NCBI GenBank assembly: GCA_030595715.1
Contig: JAUVCN010000023.1
Location: 1 to 32,341 of the forward strand
Length of the DNA: 32,341 nucleotides
Direction: 5' to 3'
Source: Thermoplasmatales archaeon
GTDB lineage: Archaea > Thermoplasmatota > Penumbrarchaeia > Penumbrarchaeales > Penumbrarchaeaceae
In this document: positions 798-6,570 of the stretch, piece after piece
Layout of the letters: the number at the start of each line of letters is the position of its first letter
Position numbering within the stretch: the stretch's first letter is position 1
Position numbers and translations under genes: made by a program
Notes under the pieces: model-generated
The model's input: only the letters and a program-made list of their open reading frames with translations
Database searches by the model: none
What the model was told of the DNA's origin: nothing

Positions 798-804
798 TAT
801 GCTC

Positions 805-816
805 TATATATTATAA
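805..816 (-). promoter_or_regulatory. TATA box of the toxin-antitoxin operon
   Basis: TATATATTATAA on the plus strand, TTATAATATATA on the coding strand. It is about 25 bp before position 784, which falls inside the tandem operator, so a bound repressor would block transcription start. Confidence 0.6.
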
Positions 817-874
817 TTGCAGAATCATTCCATTTTTACAGTCTTATTGAAAAATATTCAAGTCTAAAAATTTT

Positions 875-902
875 CCCTTTTCCGTCCATTTCAGGAAATC
901 CT
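875..902 (-). repeat. Diverged 28-bp repeat, copy 2
   Basis: Second copy of the 28-bp sequence, closest to copy 1 (CCTTTTCCGTCCA is identical in both). It lies between the membrane gene ending at 1002 and the toxin-antitoxin promoter. A minus-strand frame through it reads DFLKWTEKGKFLDLN, sharing W-T-E-K with copy 1. Confidence 0.45.
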
Positions 903-1001
903 TTCCGAGATCTCCTGCAATGCTTGAATGGTGTTCTTGTTGCTTAACTGGTTGTATCACTTTGGGGGTTCACTCCAATATTATAAATATTCACGTATTA
1001 T

Positions 1002-1463
1002 CTAAATTTTCAATCCTTCTTTCTTTCTTTTATTAAGTTGAAAGCAAAGAATGAGACAAATTCCAATAAAGAATGCAGTCGGGAGATTGAGAGTCAAAAC
1101 TGATAATACAAGCGATACTATGAATACCCCAATTGCAGGTTTTATTAGTTTCACCATTGAAAGAATAAATCCAATTGTGAATAATGGTAACGGGATCGTT
1201 ACATAGAAAATCACATCACGATATGAATTTGCAGTTATCCAATTTGTTGCCATGTAATATTGGTATAGACAAAAAGCGATCACTCCACCAGCTAATAACA
1301 TGTAAATGATGAAGATTATTGCAATTCCCGGTCTTCTTAGAAAAATACTATCGTTAGGAACTGTATCAATGATCACACTATTCTTTTTCAATTCACCTGT
1401 TTGAAGATCGAAATTTTTTACAGGAGTATACCCTGCTGTAGGATCATAGCTATCATCTGACAT
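1002..1463 (-). CDS. Small four-helix membrane protein, unknown function
   Basis: A 153-residue protein with a polar, cytoplasmic-looking N-terminus of about 45 residues (MSDDSYDPTAGYTPVKNFDL) and four predicted membrane segments at roughly 46-70, 82-107, 110-126 and 127-143, ending in a basic tail (NKRKKEGLKI). A GGAGGG Shine-Dalgarno sequence lies about five bases before the ATG. The stop is TAG; the first seven codons after it would extend the frame only briefly to a TAA. No family is recognised. The gene is AT-rich, as are its neighbours, and stands alone between a toxin-antitoxin pair and a regulator, so it is likely accessory DNA. Confidence 0.7.
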   Translation of the reverse strand: MSDDSYDPTAGYTPVKNFDLQTGELKKNSVIIDTVPNDSIFLRRPGIAIIFIIYMLLAGGVIAFCLYQYYMATNWITANSYRDVIFYVTIPLPLFTIGFILSMVKLIKPAIGVFIVSLVLSVLTLNLPTAFFIGICLILCFQLNKRKKEGLKI

Positions 1464-1795: not shown

Positions 1796-2284
1796 CTAAC
1801 TTTCCTGATGTTTGCAGATGGCAACCAGGGATCTCTCTTTGATATCGATATCCTTCATATCCCTGTCACTGAGGAATATCATATTATGATCCTGATGATG
1901 ATACATATCTTTCAGACCATTTACTCTAACAAGGCTGTTCTTATTTCCATGAAAAACATCTATCTTATCACCGTTCCTCAATTCAAGATAGGACATCAAG
2001 AATTCAGGGATCAAGGCGTTTCCATCTGCCTGCATTGACTCACTGGACACACGGACCTTTTTTGTATCTTTGTACTTGGTTGCAATTTTCGGATCTATTT
2101 CATCAAGTTTTTGAAATATTTTTATTTTGATATCATGTTCTGTCATTCCCTTATGTTTCTCGATATCTTTGGCAATCCCCTTTGCGGTTATATGGTCCAA
2201 TCCCACAGTTTCAAGGGATCCCACGATATAGGACCTGTGAAATCTTTCCATCTCTCCGTCCTCCAATTTCACTTTAACTGACAT
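1796..2284 (-). CDS. ATP-cone protein with AbrB-like C-terminal domain (probable nucleotide-sensing regulator)
   Basis: 162 residues when started at the ATG at 2284, which has a strong AAGGAGGAG Shine-Dalgarno sequence eight bases upstream; a longer frame to 2320 would begin inside an operator-like palindrome. Residues about 3-72 match the ATP-cone pattern: a charged beta hairpin (VKVKLEDGEMERFHRSYIVG), helices with GLDHITAKGIAKDIEKH, then T-E-H-D-I and a final helix with DPKIATKY. ATP-cones sense ATP/dATP in ribonucleotide reductase and in the regulator NrdR. Residues about 76-122 resemble a SpoVT/AbrB swapped hairpin: VRVSS, ALIP, LELRNGDKIDVF. The remaining 40 residues are not recognised. 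There is no zinc ribbon, so this is not NrdR. The gene is divergent from nadA. ATP-cone assignment is good; the AbrB call is weaker; the regulator role is inference. Confidence 0.72.
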   Translation of the reverse strand: MSVKVKLEDGEMERFHRSYIVGSLETVGLDHITAKGIAKDIEKHKGMTEHDIKIKIFQKLDEIDPKIATKYKDTKKVRVSSESMQADGNALIPEFLMSYLELRNGDKIDVFHGNKNSLVRVNGLKDMYHHQDHNMIFLSDRDMKDIDIKERSLVAICKHQES

Positions 2285-2300
2285 TGTATCACTCCTCCTT

Positions 2301-2322
2301 CTGTGATAAAAGAATATCACAG
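2301..2322 (-). promoter_or_regulatory. Perfect palindrome at the ATP-cone gene promoter (probable operator)
   Basis: CTGTGATA and TATCACAG, 8-bp arms with a 6-bp spacer (AAAGAA), no mismatches. It sits 17 bp before the start codon of the ATP-cone gene and overlaps the transcription start expected from the TATA box at 2343-2351. Position and symmetry fit an operator for a dimeric repressor, possibly the gene's own product. Confidence 0.6.
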
Positions 2323-2342: not shown

Positions 2343-2351
2343 TTTTATAAA
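2343..2351 (-). promoter_or_regulatory. TATA box of the ATP-cone gene
   Basis: TTTATAAAA on the coding strand, placing the start of transcription near 2318-2322, within the palindrome. Confidence 0.5.
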
Positions 2352-3597: not shown

Positions 3598-6570
3598 ATG
3601 AGGTGGACAAGATCTCTGATAATAGCGCTGGCACTTGTGATGGTATCTTTATTGCCTCTGTTAGCATATGAAGGGGTGGCCGATGAGCCTCCGTCAAGAG
3701 CACCCGATAAATACGGTTCGATCACATCGGACGAGACCTGGTCAGGCCCCCTTGCTGTTTCTGATGTCACGATCGAGGAGAATGTGACCGTCACCATCAG
3801 CAATGGGGCGGTCATCAGCATGTATGATGGGGCGGAGATATGGGTCAGGGGGACATTGTTGGTTCAGGGGTCGGAGGCTGCTTCCGATGTGGTGACCTTC
3901 AAACTATCCTTCGGATCCTACTGGGACGGTATCGTTATCAATGATACCGGAACCGCCGACATCCAGAATGCCTCTTTCTCGGGAGGTCATAATTATATTG
4001 TTATCCGGGGAGACGATGTGAGGTTGAAGAACGTTCTCTTCGACACCGGATGGTCCGGTGTCTCCGTATTTGGTGGAAGTGGACATGATATTGATTATAT
4101 TCTCGGGAAATACATGAACAATGTGCTGTTGGTCCAATCGAATACGGGTCCTATTGACATTTTTTGGGTCAGGGGGATCGAGGTTACCTACGAGGTCGTC
4201 CATCTGAGCAATGTCCATGATGTCACCGTTGGGTCAATATTCTCATCTGATTCCGGAACCGGATTGAGGATCGATGGTGGCTGCGGTGGTGAATGCGGCA
4301 ATATTACAATAAACAGGATCATTGTCAATCAGACATCACCCGCGGACCCGGGTTCAAATGGGGTCGTTCTCTGGGGACCCGTCCATGGCCTCTACCTGAA
4401 TGATGTCGGGTTAGGTACTCTCTCTACAGGGATGGACATCAATACGGATCCCGGTTCAACGGTGACAGTGAGGAACCTGATCACGGACGGATCGGTTTTC
4501 ACTCTTTTCAACCTTGACCAGGATGTCCACGGCATCGACATGGAAGTCTTCGATTCGGTTCTTGAAGCAAGCGGTGATATTGTGAACCTGAGATCGGATA
4601 CTGCAGATGTTCACCTGAACGCGATAAGCTCCAGGATAGAACCAGGTTCAATAACCCTCCTGGGTGAAGCTCTGTTCAATGTCAGCTGGTATCTAAATCT
4701 CACCTTCCAGGATGGAGCTTTCAACCCCATGGACTGCACCCTGAATACTTACCATCACGGAGGAGGCCTGTTCTCATCTTTTCATATGCCCGATGGTGAG
4801 GGTCAGATGATCCTGCCCGAACGTTCGATTTTCGAGACAGGACAAACTATCCATTACTTCGATCTCGACCTTGTCGTTCCGAACGACGTTCCTGTCGTGT
4901 ATATGCTGGAAGAGAACATCAACATCGACGAGAACAACGATCTGTTCTTTGTATTTGACATTCCACCCTACAACGATATGCAGGATGAGATCGAGTTCGA
5001 GGAGGATGGGGTCTATGAGGTGAACCTGTCGGTTTTCTTCCATGATCTCGAGAACGATCTGACCTACGATATTTCTGCAGGACCTGAACTCGACCCGATA
5101 TACATGGGTGGAGGACCTTACCCCTTGCTGATCATCGAAACAGTTGAAGATGATTGGAATGGTGTATCCTGGGTGAATATCATTGCCATCGATGGTGCCG
5201 GGAACACTACCTCTGCAAACGTCACGGTCACTGTAATTCAGGTGAACGATATCCCTTTCTTCATAGATGATGTTCCGGTCCTGACCATGGAAGAGGACAC
5301 CATCATCTTCATCAATTTCACCGGTCTGGTGGTGGATGTGGATGGTGATGAGGTACTGATGACCACAACAATAGCGGAGAACTGCACACTTTCCTGGGAT
5401 GGGTCGAACCTCACGATCGAACCGGACGAGAACTGGTTCGGTATACTTGATATCGAACTGAACATTACCGATGAGATCGGATACACACTTCATAATATGA
5501 AGGTCAACGTGACCCCTGTTGATGACATGCCAACTGCCGTTGTCAGGATCATGAATGGTTCGGAAGCGATCTTCGGGACATTCCCTGTTAATGAGACTAT
5601 CTCCATTGACACCTATATCTTTACCCTTGAGGAGGATTCTGAGATATCATTCTGGATAGATGCGATCGATATCGAGGGAGATCCCATCATATACGGGTAC
5701 AACGGGTCGGTGCTCACCTTCGGTAACCTCATCCAGGGAAATGATACCTGGCCCATGAACTTCACATTCGCTCCCCTCGAGAACGCATTTGGAACGATCG
5801 ATACGATCCTGTATCTTGCATACGGGGAGGAAGGACACGTTGATGATGTGGAGATATCCGTGAGGTTCGATATCACACCTGTCAACGATGCACCTGTCCT
5901 TGATGCACCGGTTGATTGGCATTATTCGATCGAGGAGGGTGTGGAGCCTGTGATCGATATATCTGCAATGATCTCCGATGTCGATGAGGACGCGCTCTCG
6001 ATCACCGTACATCCCGAGAGCTTCGCTTCTGTCATTGGAACCAGGATAACATTGACGATACCAGACGATGTTGCAGAGGACGACGTGGAACTGCTCATCA
6101 ATATCTCCGATGGGCAACTGAGCGATTCCGCGGTTCTCAAAGTATTCCTTCTACCTGGGACCATACCTTTACCAGAACCCGCTCTGGACGTGGACAGTCT
6201 TGAGATAGTTCCGGGAACCGATGGATGGACCATCAATGTCTATGGCGTGGAGGGTCAGACGATATACATTGTCGTGGAGGATGGAGCGGGGAACACGGAG
6301 ATATATCCATTGACATACAAGGATGGGAAGTATCACACGATGATCTACGGAGAGTTCCATGATGACGGTGATAGGATATATCTGTCGGACAATCCCGGCG
6401 GAGGGGAGATACTGCCATCTTTTTCGGAGAGCCTTCCTGAGCTTGCAGAGGTTGATGAAGGGACAGACTGGGCCCTATACCTGATCATTGGTGTTCTTCT
6501 GGTGATGGTGCTGATCGTTATCGTCTTCCTGATATCGAGGTCCAGGCGAGACGAGTATTACGAGGAATGA
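3598..6570 (+). CDS. Large beta-helix and cadherin-like cell-surface protein, C-terminal membrane anchor
   Basis: 990 residues when started at the ATG at 3598, chosen because GGGAGGA lies eight bases before it and a classic signal peptide follows (RSLIIALALVMVSLLPLLA); the frame opens 50 codons earlier, with no protein-like sequence there. Residues about 40-400 are short repeats rich in G, N, D and V typical of a right-handed parallel beta helix. Residues about 440-890 hold about four Ig/cadherin-like modules of the tandem-95 kind, marked by V-N-D-I/A-P and DVDGDE or DVDEDA at their borders; many N-x-T/S sites could be glycosylated. A membrane helix (about 956-979) and a short tail SRSRRDEYYEE end the protein. 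Probable role: adhesion, polysaccharide binding or cell-envelope structure. It ends 2 bp before a convergent gene. Confidence 0.85.
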   Translation: MRWTRSLIIALALVMVSLLPLLAYEGVADEPPSRAPDKYGSITSDETWSGPLAVSDVTIEENVTVTISNGAVISMYDGAEIWVRGTLLVQGSEAASDVVTFKLSFGSYWDGIVINDTGTADIQNASFSGGHNYIVIRGDDVRLKNVLFDTGWSGVSVFGGSGHDIDYILGKYMNNVLLVQSNTGPIDIFWVRGIEVTYEVVHLSNVHDVTVGSIFSSDSGTGLRIDGGCGGECGNITINRIIVNQTSPADPGSNGVVLWGPVHGLYLNDVGLGTLSTGMDINTDPGSTVTVRNLITDGSVFTLFNLDQDVHGIDMEVFDSVLEASGDIVNLRSDTADVHLNAISSRIEPGSITLLGEALFNVSWYLNLTFQDGAFNPMDCTLNTYHHGGGLFSSFHMPDGEGQMILPERSIFETGQTIHYFDLDLVVPNDVPVVYMLEENINIDENNDLFFVFDIPPYNDMQDEIEFEEDGVYEVNLSVFFHDLENDLTYDISAGPELDPIYMGGGPYPLLIIETVEDDWNGVSWVNIIAIDGAGNTTSANVTVTVIQVNDIPFFIDDVPVLTMEEDTIIFINFTGLVVDVDGDEVLMTTTIAENCTLSWDGSNLTIEPDENWFGILDIELNITDEIGYTLHNMKVNVTPVDDMPTAVVRIMNGSEAIFGTFPVNETISIDTYIFTLEEDSEISFWIDAIDIEGDPIIYGYNGSVLTFGNLIQGNDTWPMNFTFAPLENAFGTIDTILYLAYGEEGHVDDVEISVRFDITPVNDAPVLDAPVDWHYSIEEGVEPVIDISAMISDVDEDALSITVHPESFASVIGTRITLTIPDDVAEDDVELLINISDGQLSDSAVLKVFLLPGTIPLPEPALDVDSLEIVPGTDGWTINVYGVEGQTIYIVVEDGAGNTEIYPLTYKDGKYHTMIYGEFHDDGDRIYLSDNPGGGEILPSFSESLPELAEVDEGTDWALYLIIGVLLVMVLIVIVFLISRSRRDEYYEE

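Follow-up and report, generated by a model that had tools for sequence, protein, structure and literature searches.

Results

The window, by which we mean the whole stretch of 32,341 nucleotides analysed here (Thermoplasmatales archaeon, assembly GCA_030595715.1, contig JAUVCN010000023.1), carries on its minus strand a gene for a 162-residue protein, P0001, in which an N-terminal ATP-cone is joined to a C-terminal two-repeat barrel (Table 1). Its ATG start codon is found at 2282–2284 and its stop codon at 1796–1798. A perfect palindrome lies 17–38 nt 5′ of the ATG and abuts the Shine-Dalgarno sequence. Since the palindrome is located about 20 nt downstream of the TATA-like element, it is plausible that it overlaps a transcription start near position 2320. 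The ORF and the palindrome are both present as the initial annotation had described them.

Table 1. Coordinates of the features at the P0001 locus
Feature	Position	Strand	Basis
Gene for the 162-aa ATP-cone/double-psi-barrel protein (P0001)	1796..2284, stop codon included	−	ORF and translation, 26-member family alignment
ATP-cone half, residues 1–73; degenerate nucleotide site, L7/E8/Y19 replacing K/R/K	2066..2284	−	PF03477 in relatives, alignment, Foldseek
Two-repeat barrel, double-psi (VAT/Cdc48-N) type, residues 74–162	1799..2065	−	Pfam matches in relatives, PDB profile, hhalign, Foldseek
Shine-Dalgarno AAGGAGG of the P0001 gene	2294..2300	−	Sequence
Perfect palindrome CTGTGATA-N6-TATCACAG; unproven operator, possible RNA leader hairpin or chance repeat	2301..2322	strand-neutral	Sequence
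TATA-like element TTTATAAA, presumed promoter	2344..2351	−	Sequence

No conserved operon or gene neighborhood was found across lineages, and common neighbors occur only among close relatives. A link to the divergent neighbor nadA was considered and rejected, as neither the orthologue nor any other relative examined has nadA next to its gene. In one genus-level group (loci L113, L114, and L116) the gene lies, as judged by eye, between PolD large subunit-like and GTPase-like ORFs near rps4. Elsewhere in the window, the minus strand at 281–770 encodes a probable toxin-antitoxin pair, with a ParE-type toxin (PF05016, 4.6e-8) at 281–538 and, before it, an antitoxin-like ORF of 79 aa at 531–770.

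A conserved family of ATP-cone/barrel fusions

As a single query, P0001 gave nothing significant or informative against Pfam, NCBIfam, and the PDB, and an Rfam search gave no match. P0001 is difficult to place by itself, and its classification came through its relatives. Its own genome (G000) encodes a paralogue with 31% identity, and the Candidatus Thermoplasmatota MAG M17C-73-04 (G002) contains an orthologue with 47% identity together with a second paralogue. Two further full-length members were retrieved by a phylum-wide profile search, and full-length members are present in 21 of the 300 sampled genomes of another Thermoplasmatota class (the class of G360), under seven family labels. Within the taxonomic family to which the window belongs, the fusion was found among the sampled genomes only in G000 and G002, and with the remaining genomes devoid of it the distribution is patchy. 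In the phylogenetic tree, P0001 and its orthologue group together with a support of 100/98 within a four-member clade of this taxonomic family (100/99). Viral contigs searched with the family alignment A1 yielded no relatives, and a viral structure search returned mostly ATP-cone ribonucleotide reductases (RNRs) and noise. No curated family for the ATP-cone and double-psi barrel pair was found in Pfam or NCBIfam with 19 members, nor did any title or abstract among the papers searched, which took in little of the subscription literature, describe such a protein. There is, then, an unnamed conserved ATP-cone architecture in an uncurated Thermoplasmatota family of proteins of about 160 residues, which supports the earlier proposal of an ATP-cone fusion built from parts other than those of NrdR.

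The ATP-cone profile PF03477 matches 18 of the 19 members, at best with 4.7e-11, and the paralogue from the same genome scores 41.1 bits against a cut-off of 25.8. The sole exception is P0001, which does not reach the curated cut-off and gives no match even at E = 10. The N-terminal ATP-cone of the initial annotation is therefore correct, although it becomes visible only by way of the relatives. The predicted structure of P0001 superimposes on the NrdR cone with an rmsd of 1.8 Å over 80 columns (Foldseek). Free-standing ATP-cone proteins of about 95 residues, having no effector domain, are encoded in other Thermoplasmatota families (L025, 2903–3190, minus strand; L026, 179–553, plus strand).

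Loss of the nucleotide-contact lysines

Among sensors of the dATP/ATP ratio the ATP-cones are the best known. They have so far been described from RNRs, NrdR, and a few enzymes, and in known proteins the domain is an oligomerization switch under ATP/dATP control. In Streptomyces NrdR, nucleotide binding is impaired when V48, K50, E56, or K62 is mutated (PMC9110341). By our own motif-alignment mapping these residues correspond to positions 5, 7, 13, and 19 of P0001, where the family alignment places V5, L7, E13, and Y19, so that both lysines are gone. K7 is present in all aligned members covering that position except P0001 and its orthologue, both of which have leucine, and position 19 is lysine or arginine in every aligned member but P0001. 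The orthologue has lost one of the key lysines and P0001 both, and the second paralogue in each of the two genomes retains them. Taken together with the tree, this pattern indicates that canonical and degenerate copies coexist in G000 and G002. The charge of the cone follows the same division, with a net of +11 and +14 in the two canonical copies, 0 in P0001, and −2 in the orthologue. Given the replacement of the K50 and K62 equivalents, nucleotide sensing by P0001 itself, as had been proposed, is not supported; the nucleotide site does retain E13 and F15, and residual nucleotide binding may persist.

The C-terminal barrel

The C-terminal domain of P0001 comprises about 87 residues in two repeats, of which only the GD-box motif is AbrB-like. 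Among the 19 members, Molydop_binding matches 12 and CDC48_N matches 10 (Pfam), the CDC48_N matches of single members falling below the Pfam cut-off; MazE is absent from the Pfam matches at E up to 1, and an NCBIfam AbrB model matches one member weakly (0.0015). Against the PDB, the family profile retrieved designed double-psi barrels (1e-5) and Cdc48 N-domains (7e-4) over approximately positions 74–153. The barrel aligned by hhalign with CDC48_N proteins of related archaea over 69–71 columns (94% at 71 columns), whereas AbrB/MazE proteins from those same genomes covered 30–36 columns and the first repeat only (73% at 36 columns). The two halves of the barrel are alike in a profile-profile alignment (81%).

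The AlphaFold2 models of P0001 (pLDDT 77) and of a canonical paralogue (pLDDT 76) both place a beta-rich domain after the cone. Foldseek searches with the two models matched the NrdR and RNR ATP-cones at about 2–3 Å, and the barrel matched PhS018 and, best, VAT/VCP-type double-psi barrels at about 4–6 Å, with low-confidence loops. Sequence accordingly gives the double-psi assignment good support, and the models give it moderate support; because the latter are of middling confidence and the double-psi match lies at 4–6 Å, another cradle-loop topology (PhS018/RIFT or MraZ-like) may apply. MraZ is a DNA-binding regulator. It is an AbrB-type barrel with two AbrB-type repeats per chain (PMC4739770), and for this reason we dropped the argument that two repeats alone would exclude a DNA-binding barrel; by analogy with MraZ, DNA binding would be compatible with the fold. 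An evolutionary relationship connects AbrB with the double-psi barrels (Coles et al. 2005, 2006, cited by PMC4739770), which makes the earlier impression of an AbrB-like domain a reasonable one: the GD-box and the barrel superfamily that includes AbrB stand, and the swapped hairpin gives way to a two-repeat, double-psi-like barrel.

Stand-alone relatives of the barrel were seen at several loci. Those of L022 (about 800–1180, minus strand) and L023 (about 3680–4090, minus strand) have a lysine-rich tail and lie near genes for a prokaryotic RING-finger protein (PF14445), cysS, and TBP, and that of L024 (3783–4070, plus strand) is immediately 5′ of trkA-like and trkH-like genes.

The palindrome upstream of the gene

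The window contains 11 perfect inverted repeats with arms of at least 8 and a loop of 0–12, against 10.9 ± 3.5 expected. For a repeat of this kind to arise by chance, P is ~0.015 when only the 80 bp before the ATG are considered and 0.057 for the entire intergenic region; the position of the palindrome is thus mildly notable, and its existence is at chance level. None of 25 relatives, namely the 47% orthologue, two paralogues, and 22 others, has the palindrome upstream of its gene, and all 25 also lack any perfect inverted repeat with 7-bp arms and a loop of 3–12 within 110 bp of the start. The best similarity found there was 11 of 16 positions (the orthologue and G360), for which the chance of at least 11 is about 3.6% per sequence. 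No second perfect copy exists in the genome of the window. When as many as two mismatches are allowed, 28 sites are found, compared with 4 for a reversed control, an excess that may reflect local trinucleotide bias; the 15 sites inspected, many of them inside ORFs, formed no coherent gene set that would suggest a regulon. One copy with a single mismatch (L028, 1501–1520; G000:C46:1983–2002) is located about 90 nt 5′ of a glutamate dehydrogenase-like ORF.

An origin of the palindrome by chance, as an inverted repeat within an AT-rich promoter, agrees with the repeat count, with the 5.7% probability for the intergenic region, and with the lack of conservation, and we hold it only a little short of an even bet, considering that the repeat is the sole perfect copy in the genome and sits at the presumed start site. 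It is unlikely that the palindrome acts as an mRNA leader hairpin controlling translation or stability rather than as a DNA operator. As RNA it would form an 8-bp stem of −9.1 kcal/mol (z = −2.3 in context) abutting the Shine-Dalgarno sequence, and its 3′ arm could pair instead with the GTGATA that follows the latter (−3.6 kcal/mol). However, any perfect palindrome would be expected to fold alike, the GTGATA looks like an ordinary extended Shine-Dalgarno, the transcription start on which the hairpin depends is only presumed, and the element is unconserved between lineages. Five members of another lineage (L017, L018, L110, L111, and L112) have in their leader an invariant GC-rich 17-mer, GCGCCGAGGCGGGGCGC, with 5-bp arms about 35–52 nt upstream of the start codon, which is a possible conserved regulatory element and lends the hairpin some plausibility.

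In the initial annotation the protein was envisaged as a nucleotide-responsive transcriptional repressor of its own gene, with the C-terminal barrel bound to the palindrome where transcription of that gene starts. This would fit the location of the palindrome, the DNA binding of some barrels of the superfamily (AbrB, PMC4739770), the basic barrel halves of many relatives (net charge +3 to +6), and the weak AbrB match noted above. Nevertheless, the barrel of P0001 has a net charge of −1, and such repeats occur at chance frequency in the window. With the lysines lost, a barrel that is not an AbrB fold, and a palindrome shared by neither the orthologue nor either paralogue, a nucleotide-sensing autorepressor is unsupported for P0001, and we judge it quite improbable. 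Two findings had been named in advance as counting against it, a C-terminal half without an AbrB-like fold and a palindrome not conserved upstream of orthologues, and they are largely what was obtained. An operator role for the palindrome is possible but unsupported, and the palindrome is left out of the finding unless a closer relative proves to have it.

Relation to ribonucleotide reductase

A class II enzyme without an ATP-cone is the only RNR found in the genome of the window. In 20 of the 21 genomes of the other class that encode the fusion, the fusion copies are the sole ATP-cone matches, though a hand count finds ATP-cone ORFs of RNR length in roughly 70 of the 300. This would suit a trans-acting regulator of RNR activity, in which the ATP-cone has moved from the enzyme to a separate protein docking via the barrel. 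On the other hand, many genomes have neither, G421 has both, the counts are uncorrected for relatedness, and the fusion gene never adjoins an RNR gene at the loci examined; such a regulator seems to us improbable. At four other sites (G362:C26, G391:C42, G408:C46, and G414:C83) ATP-cone ORFs of about 155–162 aa adjoin RNR-length ATP-cone ORFs, and these are probable archaeal nrdR-RNR pairs.

Discussion

The explanation that we favor, with a probability of about 0.5, is that P0001 belongs to an uncurated family of ATP-cone/double-psi-barrel switches, in which it would represent a nucleotide-blind partner or constitutive form. The N-terminal cone would carry the two-repeat VAT/Cdc48-N-type barrel as a binding module in a stand-alone protein. 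In canonical members the oligomeric state, and with it the presentation of the barrels to a partner, which may be a protein or a nucleic acid, would depend on the nucleotide bound by the cone. P0001 and its one known orthologue are a derived branch in which nucleotide-contact lysines have been lost, and P0001 most likely acts beside the canonical paralogue as a nucleotide-blind partner subunit or as a constitutive form. What the sequences establish is the architecture, the family, the paralogy, the loss of the lysines, and the non-conservation of the palindrome. The cone-cone contacts and the hetero-assembly that this explanation presupposes are extrapolated from NrdR, and we infer the nucleotide response, the oligomerization, and the ligand or partner of the barrel in the same conditional sense. 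Though the pattern of fusion and RNR genes fits a role in trans, many genomes have neither, and we therefore commit ourselves only to a presentation of the Cdc48-N-like barrel that is nucleotide-switched in canonical members and nucleotide-blind in P0001.

A broader proposal is that these archaeal proteins represent a nucleotide switch of a new class: an ATP-cone released from RNR would have been joined to a barrel resembling Cdc48-N, some lineages would employ two paralogues, one that senses ATP/dATP and one that no longer does, and the switch would act in trans on RNR, on a Cdc48-type machine, or on transcription. We regard this as rather doubtful. Given that NrdR is described as rare in archaea (PMC9110341, PMC12176259), a conserved archaeal family with the cone on such a barrel would amount to a nucleotide-sensing architecture that has no function assigned to it, and the pair of canonical and degenerate paralogues makes it directly testable.

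Among known systems, NrdR (TIGR00244), a repressor composed of a zinc ribbon and an ATP-cone, is likewise a small two-domain protein with the same cone fold (Foldseek 1.8–2.0 Å over about 80 columns). It differs in that P0001 has no zinc ribbon and no CXXC zinc-ribbon motif in its 162 residues, in that the family has its cone at the N-terminus and its barrel at the C-terminus, and in that P0001 lacks the K50 and K62 equivalents and has no NrdR-type box shown for it. The NrdR model matches four of the 19 members weakly, at best over the cone (0.022). Archaeal 2-phosphoglycerate kinase (NF003259) shares an ATP-cone-like N-terminus, with weak matches over the cone, but its kinase domain is absent from P0001. 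With regard to the barrel, AbrB/MazE proteins resemble the family in the first repeat and the GD-box motif, yet an AbrB chain contains a single repeat and dimerizes, whereas the family has two repeats in one chain. The N-domain of VAT/Cdc48/p97 (CDC48_N, PF02359) aligns with the whole C-terminal barrel, although below the Pfam cut-off, and the family has no AAA ATPase domains and bears an ATP-cone instead. PhS018 (2glw), which has been termed a RIFT barrel (PMC11258233), and the stand-alone barrels of L022, L023, and L024 are, unlike the family, devoid of an ATP-cone; they are nonetheless small archaeal proteins with a single two-repeat barrel, and the stand-alone relatives align with the barrel of the family over 80 columns (98%).
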